From the NCBI RefSeq assembly GCF_003751785.1, contig NZ_RKIE01000002.1, positions 496,001 to 560,000 of the forward strand: a stretch of 64,000 bases of DNA, read 5' to 3'. Made by a program: the position numbers and the translations under genes. Source of the stretch: Frigoribacterium sp. PhB160 (GTDB taxonomy: Bacteria > Actinomycetota > Actinomycetes > Actinomycetales > Microbacteriaceae). The notes below the pieces were generated by a model. It did not search any database. It was not told where the DNA came from and saw only the letters and a program-made list of their open reading frames with translations. This document shows, in pieces, positions 45,775-52,596 of the stretch (position 1 is the stretch's first letter; the number at the start of each line of letters is the position of its first letter).

Positions 45775-46281
45775 GTGACCACCACCCCGACCCGTCTCGT
45801 CCGCCCGCTCGCCGTCCTCGCCCTCTCGGCCGGCCTCGTCGTCGGCCTCGCCGGCTGCGGCGAGGGCTCGATGGTCGACAACGTCGTCGGGAGCGCGGTC
45901 GACCAGGGCGTCGAGAGCGTGCGCGGCACGGTCGAGGGCGCGATCAGCGACGCGCTGGGCGGCGCGAGCATCTCGACCGACGGCACCCTGCCCGACACCT
46001 TCCCGGCCGAGGTGCCGCTGCTCGACGGCACGGTGCGCGGCGGGGGAGCGGGCCCCGACGGCTCCGGCTGGGCCGCGCAGCTGACGGTGGCGGGCCTCGA
46101 CGACTTCGCGACCGCGCAGGGCGATCTCGAGGCGGCGGGCTACACGGCCAGCGGCGTGAACGTCGACGCCGACACGGCGCTCGGCACGTTCACCGGGCCC
46201 GCGTACCGCGTCGTGCTGACGTTGACGACGTCCTCGTCCGACGACGCGGTCGTCGCGACGTACGTCGTCACGCCCGTCTAG
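45775..46281 (+). CDS. Putative lipoprotein (168 aa)
   Basis: Signal ends VVGLAGC with lipid Cys28. The mature part has an amphipathic stretch (SMVDNVVGSAVDQGVESVRGTVEGAISDALGG) and a compact C-terminal domain with LPDTFPAEVPLLDGTVRGGG and AAQLTVAGLDDFATAQGDLEAAGYTASG, resembling small substrate-binding-like actinobacterial lipoproteins of unknown function. Converges on efeB; the two stop codons share one CTAG. Confidence 0.7.
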   Translation: MTTTPTRLVRPLAVLALSAGLVVGLAGCGEGSMVDNVVGSAVDQGVESVRGTVEGAISDALGGASISTDGTLPDTFPAEVPLLDGTVRGGGAGPDGSGWAAQLTVAGLDDFATAQGDLEAAGYTASGVNVDADTALGTFTGPAYRVVLTLTTSSSDDAVVATYVVTPV

Positions 46282-47561
46282 GCGAAGAGGCCTTCACCGA
46301 CCCAGCCGCCCTCGCGCGCGCCGGGCGGGACCGCGAAGATGGCCGACCCCACGTGCTTCACGTACTCGTTCATGCGGTCGGAGCGGGCGAGCGCCGTCTG
46401 GATCGGCACGAACTGCGTCCGGGGGTCGCGCTGGTAGGCGATGAAGAACAGCCCCGCCGCGAGCCGGCCGAGGTCGTCGTTGCCGTCGACGAAGTTGTAG
46501 CCGCGGCGCAGCAGCGTGGCGCCGCCGTGGTGGTCGGGGTGCGCCAGGGCGACGTGCGAGTCGACGGCGATCGCCGGCCCGGAGCCGTCGGCCGACGTCG
46601 CGGCGAAGTCGGGGGCGGTGGACTCGGTGCCGCCCGAGAGCGGTGCGCCCTCGCCCTTGTCGCGCCCGATGACCGTCTGCTGCTCCTGCAGCGAGGCGTG
46701 GTCCCAGGTCTCGATCGTCATGCGGATCTTGCGGGCGACGAGGTACGAGCCGTCGGTCATCCAGCCGGGCCCGTCGCCGGCGGCGGCCCAGACCCCCGCG
46801 GCGACGGCGGCGGTGTCCTCGGCGCGGACGTTCGCGGTGCCGTCCTTGAACCCGAAGAGGTTGCGCGGGGTCGACTGGCCCCGCGTGGTGGACGAGGTGC
46901 GGCCGAAGCCGAGCTGCGACCAGCGGAGGGAGGCGCGGCCGAACGCGATGCGCGACAGGTTGCGGACGGCGTGCACCGCGACCTGCGGGTCGTCGCTGCA
47001 CGCCTGCACGCAGAGGTCGCCGCCGCTCTGGGCGTCCACGAGCTGGTCGCCGGAGAAGTGCGGCAGGTCGACGAGCGCCGCGGGTCGGCGGTCGGCGAGG
47101 CCGAAGCGGTCGGTGCCGTCGACGGCCGTGAACAGCGTCGGGCCGAACCCGATCGTGATGGTCAGGCCGGCGGCGGGCAGGCCGAGCGCCTCGCCGGTGT
47201 CGTCGGGCGGCGCGAGCGCCGAGCCGCCCACCGCGCCGGCCTCGCTGACGTCGAGGCCGCGGGTGAGGCGCGCGGCCGCCGCGCTCCAGTCCTGCAGCAG
47301 CTCCACGAGGTCGTCGCGCGTGGTGCCCGCCGCGACGTCGAACGCGGCGAAGTGGAGGCGGTCCTGGGCGGCGGTGGTGATGCCCGACTGGTGCCGACCG
47401 GCGAACGGGTACGAGGCGGACGCGCCGGAGGTGCCGGTCGCGTGCGCCTGGACGGCCCGGTCGGCCCCGATCCCGACGCCGGCGCCGAGCACTCCTGCGC
47501 CCACGCCGGTGCCGAGCAGGCCGAGCAGGCCGCGGCGGGACAACCCGCGCTCGTCCGTCAC
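46278..47561 (-). CDS. efeB: Dye-decolorizing (Dyp) peroxidase EfeB
   Basis: A 427-residue Tat-exported heme peroxidase. The signal carries the twin-arginine motif SRRGLLGLLG at residues 8-17 and a hydrophobic Gly/Ala core. The DyP signature GFKDGTANVRA contains the catalytic Asp, and the proximal heme His is in HVALAHPDHHGGA or nearby. EfeB works with EfeO and EfeU in ferrous/ferric iron uptake at the cell surface. Five bases separate it from efeO; the three genes form one leftward operon. Confidence 0.94.
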   Translation of the reverse strand: MTDERGLSRRGLLGLLGTGVGAGVLGAGVGIGADRAVQAHATGTSGASASYPFAGRHQSGITTAAQDRLHFAAFDVAAGTTRDDLVELLQDWSAAAARLTRGLDVSEAGAVGGSALAPPDDTGEALGLPAAGLTITIGFGPTLFTAVDGTDRFGLADRRPAALVDLPHFSGDQLVDAQSGGDLCVQACSDDPQVAVHAVRNLSRIAFGRASLRWSQLGFGRTSSTTRGQSTPRNLFGFKDGTANVRAEDTAAVAAGVWAAAGDGPGWMTDGSYLVARKIRMTIETWDHASLQEQQTVIGRDKGEGAPLSGGTESTAPDFAATSADGSGPAIAVDSHVALAHPDHHGGATLLRRGYNFVDGNDDLGRLAAGLFFIAYQRDPRTQFVPIQTALARSDRMNEYVKHVGSAIFAVPPGAREGGWVGEGLFA

Positions 47562-47566
47562 CGGCG

Positions 47567-48763
47567 TCAGCTCACGAGTGCGCTCGTCAGCCGGCTGAGC
47601 GGCTCGCTCAGGGCGTTGACGGCGTCCGACAGCGACTTCTTGTCGGCGTCGGTGAGGTCGGTGTACGACGGGAAGCCCGACTCGAGGCTGCCGTAGGAGG
47701 CGAGGAGCGTCTCGAGGGAGCCGAGGCGCGCGTCGACGTCGTCGACGAGGTCGGGGTCCTTCTCGACGACGACGTCGCGGACGCCCTCGTAGGCCACCCG
47801 GGCCCCCTCGAGATTGGCCTGGAAGTCCCAGAGGTCGGTGTGCGACCAGATCTCCTCCTCGCCGGTGATCTTGCCGGTGGCGACCTCGTCCATGAGCCCG
47901 ACGGCGCCGTTGCTGATCGCGTCGATGCTGACGGTGAAGTCGTCGGCCGTCACGGCGTCGTGCAGCTCGGCGGTGTCGCTCGTGAGCTGCGTGGCGTAGC
48001 GGGCACGCTCGTCGGCGGTCAGCGGGACGTACGTCGCGCCTCCGTCGTCGGCCGCGTCAGGCTGCCAGAGGTCCTTCTCGATGCGGTGCCAGCCGGTCCA
48101 CTCCGTCCCCTCCTCGACGTCCGCCTCGCGGAAGTCGATCTTCGGGTCGAGGTCGCCGAACGACTCGGCGACGGGCTCGATGCGCTCGTAGAACGCCCGG
48201 GTCGTCGGGTAGAGCTCGCGGGCCCGGGCGTCGTCGCCCGACGTGTAGGCGTCGAGGAACTCCTGGGTGGCGGGCACGAGCTGCCCGACCTGGTCGCGCA
48301 CGTAGCCGACGTACGCGGCGGCGGCGGCGTCGATGCGCTCGGCGTCGCTGCCGGTCGGCTCGACGGCCGTGCCCGAGTCGGTCACGGTGAACGGCGCGCG
48401 GACGCCCTGTCCGACGAGGCCGGGGATGCACGCGGTGACGTAGTCGCCCGCCGGCACCGCGACGGTGAGCGAGGCCGTGGTGCCGGGACCGATGTTCTCC
48501 TTCTCGCTGACGATGCGGAGGCCGTCCGAGGCCAGCAGCTCGAACTCGGTCGCGTCGGTGCCCGTGTTCGTCATGGTGAACGTGACCGGGCCGCTCGGCA
48601 CGCTGGTCGTCGAGACGGTGCACGCGTCGCCGTTCCCCTCGACGGCGACGGTCGTCGCGCCCGCGGCCGAGCCGGCCGGGGCGTTGGCGACGCAGCCGGT
48701 GAGGGAGAGGGCGGCGAGCAGGGCGCCGGCTCCGAGGGCCAGGGGGCGGGGGCGTGCGGTCAT
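47567..48763 (-). CDS. efeO: Iron uptake lipoprotein EfeO (cupredoxin plus M75 peptidase-like domain)
   Basis: A 398-residue lipoprotein with lipid Cys24 (LSLTGC). An N-terminal cupredoxin domain (about 40-140) contains DACTVSTTSVPSG and DYVTACIPG, whose cysteines and acidic residues could bind metal. The M75/imelysin-like helical domain (about 160-390) carries the metal motif HRIEKDLW (HxxE). It captures extracellular iron for EfeU. The start overlaps efeU by four bases (ATGA). Confidence 0.94.
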   Translation of the reverse strand: MTARPRPLALGAGALLAALSLTGCVANAPAGSAAGATTVAVEGNGDACTVSTTSVPSGPVTFTMTNTGTDATEFELLASDGLRIVSEKENIGPGTTASLTVAVPAGDYVTACIPGLVGQGVRAPFTVTDSGTAVEPTGSDAERIDAAAAAYVGYVRDQVGQLVPATQEFLDAYTSGDDARARELYPTTRAFYERIEPVAESFGDLDPKIDFREADVEEGTEWTGWHRIEKDLWQPDAADDGGATYVPLTADERARYATQLTSDTAELHDAVTADDFTVSIDAISNGAVGLMDEVATGKITGEEEIWSHTDLWDFQANLEGARVAYEGVRDVVVEKDPDLVDDVDARLGSLETLLASYGSLESGFPSYTDLTDADKKSLSDAVNALSEPLSRLTSALVS

Positions 48764-49656
48764 CGGGGGGCTCCTGCGGTCGTGCGGGCGGGGGTGGTCG
48801 GGTCGGCGGGGACGGCCGGGTCGGCGGCGCGGGAGGCGCGGGCGGCCCCGGACGGCCGTCGTCGCGTCGCGCGGACGAACAGCGGCACGACGACGGCGAG
48901 GTACGCGAGCCAGGCGGCCACCTGCAGCCAGCTCGGCGTCGGGGTGAAGTTCACGAGGCCCTGCAGCAGGGTGCCCTGCCAGCTCGTCGGCGGCACGGCC
49001 GCGCTGACGTCGAAGGCGAGGGAGGTGCGGCCCGGGAGCACGCCGGCCTCCTGCAGGTCGCCCACCCCGTACGCCAGCACGCCGGCGGCCACCACGACGA
49101 GGACGTAGCCCGTCACGGTGAAGAAGCGCCGCAGGTCGATGCTCATGACGCCGCGGTAGATCGCGACCTCGATCGCGACGGCGGTGAGGACGCCCAGCAG
49201 GGCGCCGACCAGCGGGGAGGCGCCGCCCCCGGTCGACTGGACCGTCGCCCAGACGAACAGCGCGGTCTCGATGCCCTCGCGGCCCACGGAGAGGAAGGCG
49301 AGCAGCACGACGGCCCATGCGCCTCCGGCCACCGCACGGTCGAGCCCGGACTCGAGCTCGCCCCGCATGCCGCGGGCCGTGCGGGCCATCCAGAAGACCA
49401 TGCCCGTGACGAAGCCGACGGCCACGATCGAGAGCCCGCCGCCGATGATCTCCTGGGCCTGGAAGGTGAGCCCGTAGGCGCCGAAGGTGAGGAGCGCGCC
49501 GAGGCCCAGCGAGAGCACGACCGCGGCGACGACCCCGAGCCAGACGCGGGGGAGGACGTCGCGGCGGTCGGTCTTGGCGAGGTACGCGACGAGGATGCCC
49601 ACGACGAGGGCGGCCTCGAGGCCCTCCCGGAGTCCGATGAGGTAGTTGGCGAGCAC
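48760..49656 (-). CDS. efeU: Iron permease EfeU (FTR1 family)
   Basis: A 298-residue FTR1-like permease with seven membrane segments. The two REXXE iron motifs are present: LREGLEAAL near the start and VGREGIETALF near residue 125. The C-terminus is a disordered Arg/Ala/Pro tail. First gene of efeUOB, with the iron box 92-110 bases upstream. It is an elemental iron importer, generally active at low pH or under aerobic conditions. Confidence 0.95.
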   Translation of the reverse strand: MLANYLIGLREGLEAALVVGILVAYLAKTDRRDVLPRVWLGVVAAVVLSLGLGALLTFGAYGLTFQAQEIIGGGLSIVAVGFVTGMVFWMARTARGMRGELESGLDRAVAGGAWAVVLLAFLSVGREGIETALFVWATVQSTGGGASPLVGALLGVLTAVAIEVAIYRGVMSIDLRRFFTVTGYVLVVVAAGVLAYGVGDLQEAGVLPGRTSLAFDVSAAVPPTSWQGTLLQGLVNFTPTPSWLQVAAWLAYLAVVVPLFVRATRRRPSGAARASRAADPAVPADPTTPARTTAGAPR

Positions 49657-49820: not shown

Positions 49821-51122
49821 ATGACTTCCTTCGCCTCCGCCGCGTCCGACCCGCGGCCCGCGACGCCCGGCGTCGCCCGCACCGAGCACGTGCTCTTCGT
49901 CCACGCGCACCCCGACGACGAGACGATCACGACCGGCGGCACCATCGCCTCCCTCGTCGCCTCGGGCGCCTCGGTCACCGTCGTCACCTGCACGCGCGGC
50001 GAGCTCGGCGAGGTGCTGCCCGACGACCTCGCGGCGCTGCGCGGAGACGAGGCCGCGCTCGCCGTCCACCGCGAGGGCGAGATCGCCGAGGCCATGCGCG
50101 AGCTCGGCGTCCGCGACCACCGGTTCCTCGGCGACCCCGAGGCGCGCACGGCGGGCCTGCCCTCGCGGGCGTACCGCGACAGCGGCATGGTGTGGCGCGC
50201 CGACGGCGTGGCCGGGCCCACGCCCGACCTCCACCCGGCCGCCTTCTGCGCCGCCGAGTTCGGCGAGGTCGTCTCCGACCTGTCCGCCGTCGTCGAGTCG
50301 GTGCGGCCGACCGCGATCGTCAGCTACGACGAGGACGGCGGCTACCACCACCCCGACCACGTGCGGGCGAACCGGGTCGCGGTGCGCGTCGCCCGGCTCG
50401 CCGAGGTGCCGTACTTCGCCGTCCTGAGCGGTGCCGGCCAGGCCGAGGGCGCCGAGGCCGAGGCGCTCGCCGCCGACGACAGCGTCCTGTCCCTCGACGT
50501 GCGCGCCTCCACGCCGCGCACGATCGCCGCCCTCCGCCGCTACCGCACGCAGCTCGAGGTCGTCGACCTGCCCGGGGGGCGCGCCGGCGTCCGGTACCCG
50601 CACGGCGCGGTCGACCCGGTGCCGACCGTCGAGTCGTTCCGCTCGGTGGCGGCCCCGGCCGAGGCGGCGTCGGCGTCGACGACCTCCGAGCTCGCCGACA
50701 TGACCCGCGGCGGCCGGGCCGGCACCCTGCTGCTGGCCCTGGCGGCCGGCGCCGTCTTCGGCGCGATCGGCACGGTCGGGCACCAGGTCACGACGACGGT
50801 CGCGGGTGCTCCGCTCTGGACCGGCCTCGTCGTCTCGCTCGTCATGGCCGCGGCGCTCGTCGCCGGGTTCCGCCTCGTCTTCCGGTCCCGGGCCGTCGCC
50901 GTCGCCGCGGCGCTCGGCCTCTACCTCGCCATCGGCGCCTTCTCGCAGCCCGGCGCCGGCGGCTCCGCCCTCGTGCCCGCGAACCTGCCGGGCTACGGCT
51001 GGGCGTTCGGGCCCGCCGTGGTCGCGATGATCGTGCTCGCGTGGCCGACGCTGCCGCCCCGGGAGGCGGGCGGGGCGCGCCAGCCGACCCGCGCCTCCGG
51101 CGTCCAGGTCGGCGGGAGATAA
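49821..51122 (+). CDS. mshB: MshB-like GlcNAc-Ins deacetylase fused to a C-terminal membrane domain
   Basis: A 433-residue protein. Residues about 15-290 are a PIG-L/LmbE deacetylase with HAHPDDETITTGG (zinc-binding H-PDD) and the second metal motif YHHPDH, diagnostic of mycothiol-pathway MshB, which deacetylates GlcNAc-inositol. Residues about 300-420 contain four hydrophobic segments (TLLLALAAGAVFGAIGTVG, LWTGLVVSLVMAAALVAGF, AVAVAAALGLYLAIGAF, PAVVAMIVLAWPTL). In mycobacteria a separate small membrane protein is encoded next to mshB; here it appears fused. First gene before fdxA and dapC. Confidence 0.88.
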   Translation: MTSFASAASDPRPATPGVARTEHVLFVHAHPDDETITTGGTIASLVASGASVTVVTCTRGELGEVLPDDLAALRGDEAALAVHREGEIAEAMRELGVRDHRFLGDPEARTAGLPSRAYRDSGMVWRADGVAGPTPDLHPAAFCAAEFGEVVSDLSAVVESVRPTAIVSYDEDGGYHHPDHVRANRVAVRVARLAEVPYFAVLSGAGQAEGAEAEALAADDSVLSLDVRASTPRTIAALRRYRTQLEVVDLPGGRAGVRYPHGAVDPVPTVESFRSVAAPAEAASASTTSELADMTRGGRAGTLLLALAAGAVFGAIGTVGHQVTTTVAGAPLWTGLVVSLVMAAALVAGFRLVFRSRAVAVAAALGLYLAIGAFSQPGAGGSALVPANLPGYGWAFGPAVVAMIVLAWPTLPPREAGGARQPTRASGVQVGGR

Positions 51123-51161: not shown

Positions 51162-51488
51162 GTGACGTACGTGATCGCACTGCCCTGTGTGGATGTCAAA
51201 GACCGTGCCTGCATCGACGAATGCCCCGTCGACTGCATCTACGAGGGCGAACGCTCGCTCTACATCCACCCCGACGAATGCGTCGACTGCGGTGCCTGCG
51301 AGCCCGTCTGCCCCGTCGAGGCCATCTACTACGAGGACGACCTGCCCGACAAGTGGGCCGACTACTACAAGGCCAACGTCGAGTTCTTCGACGAGATCGG
51401 CTCGCCCGGCGGCGCCGCGAAGGTCGGCGTGATCGCGAAGGACCACCCCGTCATCGCGGTCCTGCCGCCCCAGGCGCACGCCGAGTAG
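51162..51488 (+). CDS. fdxA: Seven-iron ferredoxin
   Basis: A 108-residue ferredoxin with [17 protein letters not shown] (Cys-x7-Cys-x3-Cys-x3-Cys) and [12 protein letters not shown] (CxxCxxCxxxCP), the arrangement for one 3Fe-4S and one 4Fe-4S cluster. It carries electrons for redox enzymes such as P450 or oxidoreductases. The GTG start follows AAGGGA. It sits between mshB and dapC, seven bases before the latter, a gene order conserved in actinobacteria. Confidence 0.95.
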
Positions 51489-51495
51489 CCGCGCG

Positions 51496-52596
51496 GTGGC
51501 CCTCGACCTGCCCGACTTCCCCTGGGACTCGCTGACCGGCTACGCCGAGACCGCGCGGGCCCACCCGGGCGGCATCGTCGACCTCTCGGTCGGCTCGCCG
51601 GTCGACCCCACCCCCGACGTCGTGCGGGAGGCGCTGGTCGCCTCGACCGACGCGCACGCCTACCCGCAGGTGGCCGGCACGCCCGCCCTGCGCGCGGCGA
51701 TCGCGGAGTGGTACGAGCGTCGCCGGGGCGTCGCCGGGCTGACCGACGCCGAGGTGCTGCCGACGATCGGCTCGAAGGAGCTCATCGCGGGCATGGCCCT
51801 GTGGCTCGGCATCGGCCGCGGCGACACCATCGTGTACCCGAGGGCGGCCTACCCGACCTACGCGCTCGGCGCGGCCCTCGTCGGCGCCGACTCGCTCGCG
51901 TCCGACGACCCGGCCGAGTGGCCCGAGTCGACCCGCCTGGTCTGGCTGAACAGCCCCGGCAACCCCGACGGCTCCGTCCTCGACGTCGAGCAGCTGCGCG
52001 CCGCGGTCGCGCGGGCCCGCGAGCTCGGGGCCGTCGTCGCGGGCGACGAGTGCTACGCCGAGCTGGGCTGGGAGGGCGAGTGGGCCGACCGTCCCACCCC
52101 CTGCGTCCTCGACCCCCGCGTCGTCGGCGACGACCGTCGCGGCGTGGTCAGCGTGTACTCGCTGAGCAAGCAGTCGAACCTCGCCGGCTACCGCGCCGGC
52201 TTCGTCGCGGGCGACGCCGACGTGGTCGCCCAGCTGCTCGCCGTGCGCAAGCACGCGGGCCTGATGCCGCCCGCCCCGGTGCAGGAGGCCATGCGCGTCG
52301 CCCTCGGCGACGAGCAGCACGTGCAGCGGCAGAAGGCGCTCTACCGCGCCCGCCGGGCGGCCCTCGCGCCGGCGCTCGAGGCCGCGGGCTTCCGCGTCGA
52401 CCACAGCGAGGCCGGCCTGTACCTCTGGGTCACCCGCGACGAGGACGCCTGGCAGAGCGTCGCCTGGCTGGCCGAGCGCGGGGTGCTCGTGGCGCCCGGC
52501 AGCTTCTACGGCGTCGACGGCGGCCGCCACGTGCGGGTCGCCCTGACGACGACCGACGAGCGGATCGCGGCGGCCGTGGAGCGCCTCCGGGGCTGA
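51496..52596 (+). CDS. dapC: Succinyldiaminopimelate aminotransferase DapC
   Basis: A 366-residue class I/II aminotransferase with VDLSVGSPVDPTPDVV, PGNPDGS, GDECYAELGW and the PLP lysine in SLSKQSNLAGYRAGF. It converts N-succinyl-2-amino-6-ketopimelate to succinyl-LL-DAP in lysine and peptidoglycan biosynthesis. Its partner genes dapD and dapE lie 1.3-2.4 kb downstream, which supports DapC over other aminotransferases. GTG start, seven bases after the fdxA stop. Confidence 0.92.
   Translation: MALDLPDFPWDSLTGYAETARAHPGGIVDLSVGSPVDPTPDVVREALVASTDAHAYPQVAGTPALRAAIAEWYERRRGVAGLTDAEVLPTIGSKELIAGMALWLGIGRGDTIVYPRAAYPTYALGAALVGADSLASDDPAEWPESTRLVWLNSPGNPDGSVLDVEQLRAAVARARELGAVVAGDECYAELGWEGEWADRPTPCVLDPRVVGDDRRGVVSVYSLSKQSNLAGYRAGFVAGDADVVAQLLAVRKHAGLMPPAPVQEAMRVALGDEQHVQRQKALYRARRAALAPALEAAGFRVDHSEAGLYLWVTRDEDAWQSVAWLAERGVLVAPGSFYGVDGGRHVRVALTTTDERIAAAVERLRG

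Follow-up and report, generated by a model that had tools for sequence, protein, structure and literature searches.

A conserved fusion in Microbacteriaceae links an MshB-type deacetylase and a four-helix membrane domain in one frame

The 64,000-nucleotide stretch of the Frigoribacterium sp. PhB160 genome analysed here (the window) holds a gene in which a deacetylase related to the mycothiol enzyme MshB runs on into a membrane domain, and this raises the questions of whether the joining is genuine, where else it occurs and whether the membrane part exists for the sake of mycothiol synthesis. At 49821-51122 on the forward strand, 433 codons with zero internal stops can be read, bearing the motifs of an MshB-type enzyme and four helices in one frame, just as the original prediction had it; an ATG further upstream would extend this frame to 49785 as an alternative start. 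The locus comprises the following features:

48760..49656, reverse strand: efeU, iron permease, divergent upstream neighbour (NF041756, 359.7 bits)
49821..51122, forward strand: fused gene encoding an MshB-type deacetylase and a DUF6113-like four-helix membrane domain (433 aa, one frame)
49881..50636, forward strand: PIG-L/MshB catalytic domain, residues 21-272 (PF02585, TIGR03445 and PDB fold match)
49905..49922, forward strand: AHPDDE motif, residues 29-34 (aligned to MshB chains 1q7t and 4ewl)
50337..50360, forward strand: GGYHHPDH motif forming the second active-site half, residues 173-180 (same MshB chains aligned as for AHPDDE)
50649..50705, forward strand: linker, residues 277-295 (low AlphaFold pLDDT; residues 281-287 under 50)
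50706..50780, forward strand: predicted transmembrane helix 1, residues 296-320 (hydropathy and AlphaFold)
50820..50882, forward strand: predicted transmembrane helix 2, residues 334-354 (hydropathy and AlphaFold)
50889..50942, forward strand: predicted transmembrane helix 3, residues 357-374 (hydropathy and AlphaFold)
50985..51041, forward strand: predicted transmembrane helix 4, residues 389-407 (hydropathy and AlphaFold)
51162..51488, forward strand: fdxA, ferredoxin, 39 nt after the fusion (NCBIfam FdxA_Actino, 190.6 bits)
51496..52596, forward strand: dapC, succinyldiaminopimelate transaminase, next in the conserved neighbourhood (TIGR03539, 560.7 bits)

The AlphaFold model of the fusion (mean pLDDT 89.1, pTM 0.81) is composed of an MshB-like domain, a poorly ordered linker and four long helices, the latter coinciding with four hydropathy peaks, while a fifth peak at residues 39-57 within the enzyme is barely over the threshold (1.44 versus 1.4). 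Top PDB matches of the model in Foldseek are 4ewl, 1q74 and 1q7t (E 5e-17 to 5e-16), and M. tuberculosis MshB entries are also the closest sequences of solved structure to the enzyme half. Residues 25-190 match Pfam PIG-L (PF02585, E 1.2e-25), and the best NCBIfam family is MshB (TIGR03445), matched over residues 25-197 with 165.2 bits, below the curated cut-off of 224.35; this match ends at model position 158 of 284, positions 159-284 being unmatched by sequence. As the curated cut-off is missed, the protein is filed as MshB-type, and the name MshB draws on its motifs and fold, its place in the tree, the genome context and the absence of a rival candidate instead of the curated score. The AHPDDE residues are presumably zinc-binding and catalytic, with roles as in MshB of M. 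tuberculosis, which we take to be Rv1170. MshC (550.7 bits), MshD (226.1 bits) and Mca (349.7 bits) are all found over their cut-offs in the window genome; the best MshA candidate reaches 298.9 bits, below the cut-off of 462.5. No second MshB was found in this genome, where the three matches to the fusion are the protein itself, Mca and one match of 20.4 bits. Most likely, the N-terminal half is the cell's MshB, i.e., the GlcNAc-Ins deacetylase.

Compared with MshB (TIGR03445; PDB 1q74, 1q7t and 4ewl), the fusion has the fold, AHPDDE and GGYxHPDH, a mycothiol-making genome and the place just before the membrane gene in common, but here the latter is joined to it as an in-frame domain, the score is lower than curated and model positions 159-284 find no match. 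The eukaryotic PIG-L (GlcNAc-PI de-N-acetylase), acting on a lipid substrate and possessing an N-terminal membrane segment, belongs to the same deacetylase superfamily and is likewise membrane-bound, as predicted for the fusion, whereas the latter has its four-helix domain after the enzyme and an enzyme half whose expected substrate is presumably soluble. Mean K+R per loop amounts to 1.47 in the N-terminal, 1.10 in the middle and 0.80 in the C-terminal loop, versus 0.24 and 0.37 for the remaining two loops, and this distribution of positive charge predicts a cytosolic enzyme half and a membrane domain with both ends inside. Membrane insertion, topology and catalytic activity of the fusion are thus predicted, whereas its single frame, homologies, active-site residues and conservation and the association with MshC are shown by the sequences.

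The same arrangement recurs in relatives, with a single frame at 30 of 30 loci (29 relatives plus the window's own) and AHPDDE and GGYxHPDH invariant in all 30 fusions; the relatives are the best matches to the fused protein, chosen for full-length match, and hence show recurrence, not frequency. Two of them share the window's genus at 75% identity, and dN/dS in the three congener pairs is 0.14-0.28 for the enzyme part and 0.08-0.35 for the membrane part, with values of 0.25-0.28 and 0.34-0.35, respectively, for the window against its two congeners. In the linker (residues 273-295), the ratio rises to 1.11 and 0.82 for the window against the congeners and is 0.18 between the congeners themselves. 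Judging from these ratios, both halves of the fusion are under purifying selection. The gene fusion is genuine and conserved and not an artefact. An internal start yielding a separate membrane protein was also considered and rejected, since 10 of the 38 intact fusions have a start codon with ribosome-binding site where the halves meet, compared with 28 of 150 control windows placed within the enzyme, which is no clear enrichment; for the ATG at 50700, a pattern search found no ribosome-binding site.

The membrane domain of the window itself matches DUF6113 (PF19608) with 8.8 bits (E 1.7), under the gathering score of 27, and 39 of 49 Microbacteriaceae membrane domains match at E 0.1 or better (best 1.7e-7). 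Comparing a profile of these 49 copies with the separate membrane genes following mshB at 25 other actinobacterial loci resulted in an hhalign probability of 98.4 (E 7.7e-15). The copy after mshB of Streptomyces olivoverticillatus is DUF6113 (E 7.9e-51), and among ten copies scanned the gathering score is passed by this one and those of Streptosporangium and Streptacidiphilus and missed by the other seven. By profile comparison, the membrane half of the fusion is a homologue of the stand-alone protein encoded after mshB in Streptomyces (DUF6113) and other actinobacteria; it is filed as DUF6113-like because of this homology, the Pfam gathering score not being reached. With DUF6113 it shares the four helices, the place directly after mshB and the profile homology, but in the window it forms the C-terminal half of the enzyme's chain, not a gene of its own, and its direct Pfam score is not significant. 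In M. tuberculosis, the DUF6113 protein after mshB is probably Rv1171, which presumably adjoins mshB (Rv1170). A previous study gives Rv1171 as a 15.2 kDa membrane protein with four helices (PMC2396618). Open-licence papers on the fusion or on DUF6113 were not found. Foldseek of the four-helix domain against the PDB gave a best E of 4.0 and no match at 0.001 or better, and the VIA-align values, with a heme exporter chain (7w7c) and Vps54 as best (both Z 6.5) and ECF S-components in further rows (Z 5.1-5.3), lie in the range of common arrangements, not above unrelated helical models.

At 87 of 89 Microbacteriaceae loci read (all 56 fusions and 33 of the 83 lone membrane genes), fdxA follows the membrane domain. 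Outside the family, an FdxA match was found in the flank (0.9-2.5 kb fetched) at 8 of 56 named membrane-domain loci, always at least 675 nt away, and the ferredoxin, a fixed partner within Microbacteriaceae, was thus rejected as clue to the function of the membrane domain. At five loci (L008, L016, L017, L028 and L037), unlike in the window, citrate synthase closely follows fdxA with no DapC match between. On the other side of the fusion, iron-uptake genes (efeU and the Dyp-type peroxidase subunit) lie divergently at 46278-49656 on the reverse strand, and efeU adjoins the fusion in many relatives.

That the membrane domain occurs elsewhere as a separate gene just after mshB, as had been predicted, is borne out by a survey of named mshB loci. 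Among the best 80 of 580 candidates, 13 are fused, 50 have a separate membrane gene after mshB, with the domain beginning 1-312 nt past the mshB stop, and at 17 none was detected, three of the latter having fewer than 700 bases remaining after mshB; Arthrobacter castelli (L187) is also counted among these 17, although its long frame ends in a hydrophobic C-terminus and, on visual inspection, resembles a fusion. The 13 fused loci belong to Curtobacterium (three), Brevibacterium (five), Agrococcus (two), Rathayibacter iranicus, Rhodoluna limnophila and a Micrococcaceae MAG. Intact fusions are present in 38 of 150 Microbacteriaceae genomes, the window's included, and Brevibacterium, Micrococcaceae and the families f3 and f14 have fusions as well. 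From other families, 20 loci (19 of the same order and one of the same class) were read, with a single-frame fusion at nine, separate genes side by side at six, no PIG-L domain at four and a split enzyme part at one. In this split case (L092 in genome G278 of family f14, at the same place as L071), PIG-L is spread over two frames (107 and 43 bits), possibly by a frameshift or an error. In family f22, which we guess to be mycobacteria or relatives, the membrane domain is weakly matched in four of nine genomes (E 1.4e-5 to 3.1e-4), and in these four mshB directly precedes a separate membrane gene. Over the class, the membrane domain was found in 112 of 148 genomes and MshC over cut-off in 134 of 148, a contrast that says little as MshC-negative genomes are few and several are incomplete.

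An MshB tree of 102 rows, calculated by a quick method and with SH-aLRT support only, places the fused Microbacteriaceae, Brevibacterium and Micrococcaceae in one supported group together with the 20 detached Microbacteriaceae MshBs examined, 19 of which fall within a supported 28-row subgroup that also includes five fused proteins. Families f3 and f14 make up another fused group, which stands beside the adjacent-gene family f9. The simplest reading of this tree would be that fusion happened at least twice and was later undone in Microbacteriaceae, with the membrane gene staying behind; a single early fusion followed by a larger number of separations would be the alternative. MshBs of Tessaracoccus and Propioniciclava (L151, L204 and L205) fall among the detached Microbacteriaceae MshBs, which suggests transfer between families. 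Actinobacterial-type MshB was also encountered in MAGs titled Bifidobacterium breve (L195, L199 and L207) and Spirochaetaceae (L174), where titles are probably wrong or bins mixed; the tree places L199 with Candidatus Planktophila.

For relating the fusion to mycothiol, MshC was taken as marker of the pathway in the 150 Microbacteriaceae genomes, 13 of which are below the line of 90% completeness and 5% contamination. MshC was found in 88 of the 150 genomes, 84 over cut-off and four at 449-483 bits, with the next-best scores at about 300 bits or less, probably representing cysteinyl-tRNA synthetases. This is consistent with the sparing use of mycothiol in Microbacteriaceae stated in a previous genome study of the family (PMC6106888). 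The membrane domain is present in 139 of the 150 genomes, namely in 80 of 88 with MshC and 59 of 62 without. Intact fusions are encoded in 38 genomes with and none without MshC, altered fusions in 3 and 15, a membrane gene alone in 39 and 44, and no membrane gene in 8 and 3, respectively. Assignment to the class of lone membrane genes (83 of the 139) is by a stop-to-stop frame of less than 235 aa in 72 cases and by profile in 11 cases with a longer frame, in which the profile found no enzyme domain and a heavily decayed one could be missed; ten of these 11 were inspected directly, the remaining one being G085. G102 was set among the fused by hand, as its N-terminal part, though under the profile threshold, is almost identical to that of G025.

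All seven chosen active-site residues are kept in 38 fusions, all from MshC-positive genomes, and the association has a Fisher p of 5e-11, a value that ignores kinship. Ten of the 15 altered fusions in MshC-negative genomes are clearly altered and five mildly or uncertainly. Nine of the 15 retain none to three of the seven residues (none in G025, G102 and G065), in G111 two are changed and in four genomes only Tyr175 is replaced, by Phe in G010, G092 and G081 and by Thr in G023; G144 is counted although a contig end cuts off the first motif, so that its state cannot be judged. The Phe175 fusions (L105, L106 and L107), with an active site otherwise intact, come from small genomes without MshC and are perhaps deacetylases with another substrate. 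Conversely, degenerate fusions are present in three MshC-positive genomes (G078, G141 and G070), the first two of which also carry a detached MshB. In G070 (L109), where MshC scores 449 bits, under the cut-off, the only MshB match has both motifs changed and four of seven residues kept. Within single genera, MshC and an intact fusion in G101 and G037 contrast with lack of MshC and an altered fusion in G021 and G111, respectively. A tree built from five proteins for the 56 fusions has nine changes of the active-site state, of which supported branches force at least five, and eight changes of the MshC state. Supported independent contrasts amount to five (two on a smaller first tree), four in the expected direction, none opposite and one without difference, giving a sign test p of 0.125, although with five contrasts this test cannot reach 0.05. 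Hence, the association between MshC loss and active-site loss is strong by count and, because of these few events, limited in independent ones.

Where the enzyme half is dead, the protein is still conserved. In all four pairs of dead-enzyme fusions (G063/G129, G025/G102, G082/G145 and G078/G141), dN/dS is 0.18-0.29 for the enzyme half and 0.03-0.20 for the membrane half, with silent sites near saturation in G082/G145 (dS 1.87). Four intact pairs show 0.09-0.45 and 0.10-0.21, respectively. For a ninth pair with the Tyr to Phe exchange (G010/G092), silent sites are saturated and do not give an enzyme-half ratio; the membrane half is at 0.12. Low ratios in the dead halves imply that this domain is not drifting like a pseudogene, and it seems to be retained for another job, although constraint from an overlapping strand may also be behind the low dN/dS.

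As a whole, these findings are probably best explained by a conserved fusion of MshB with a membrane protein whose domain has its own job not tied to mycothiol. Neighbouring mshB and membrane genes would have been joined in frame in an ancestor of Microbacteriaceae and related families, and, given a mycothiol-independent role of the membrane domain, tethering of MshB would be a by-product of the fusion, not a pathway requirement. We infer this independent function from the presence of the membrane domain in 139 of 150 genomes, among them 59 of 62 without MshC, and from the membrane half being kept where the enzyme half is dead. The original prediction had the fusion place a mycothiol step at the membrane, and here two parts have to be separated: tethering may fairly be assumed and such a location is a plausible consequence, whereas localising the step is probably not the reason for the membrane domain, as this is just as frequent in genomes without MshC as in those with it, and as the MshC-negative fusions are altered in the enzyme half but retain the membrane half. 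Conceivable, if somewhat doubtful, is that the fusion also performs a second task other than catalysis, with the MshB domain as a retained pseudoenzyme in mycothiol-less lineages, perhaps ligand-sensing or regulatory, beside fdxA.

The preferred reading leaves open whether the joining helps, and it overlaps partly with the rather less likely one that the joining is functionless, a stop codon having been lost between neighbouring genes with both halves remaining independent. Fusion followed by separation on the MshB tree and the poorly conserved linker between the window and its two congeners would suit a functionless joining, but the fused state has been kept through 38 diverse genomes, and in all four pairs with dead enzyme halves these remain attached and subject to purifying selection. 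Unlikely is that the membrane domain serves MshB, as anchor in a membrane-associated mycothiol assembly or as link to a membrane transport step. The neighbourhood of mshB and membrane gene in many actinobacterial families (50 among the best 80 of 580 loci) and the fused groups in two parts of the MshB tree speak for such a service; against it, the membrane gene is found in 59 of 62 genomes without MshC and is unfused in 39 MshC-positive ones, and among the 20 detached MshBs fetched, the membrane domain of the same genome is located elsewhere for 15 and was not found for five. It is improbable that the enzyme half is a different PIG-L deacetylase, as could be read from the sub-cut-off score and from the TIGR03445 match halting at position 158, since MshB provides both the best NCBIfam family and the best structural matches, the fusion has no competitor as MshB in its genome, which also encodes MshC, MshD and Mca, and intact active sites of the fusion are found only together with MshC (38 of 38). 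That two genes were joined near 50700 by a frameshift or an error of sequencing, named beforehand as what would undo the fusion, is excluded by the frame being open in all 29 relatives fetched and by low dN/dS on either side of the junction.

With the preferred reading, a conserved membrane protein would have absorbed a mycothiol enzyme, which its relatives have kept, lost or retained as a dead domain. An uncharacterised membrane family encoded after mshB across actinobacteria, to which Rv1171 of M. tuberculosis presumably belongs, is now tied to a testable question, namely why it survives without mycothiol. The dead-enzyme fusions represent natural mutants in which catalytic and other roles are already separated, and assays of mycothiol enzymes in these families should expect a membrane protein instead of a soluble one.
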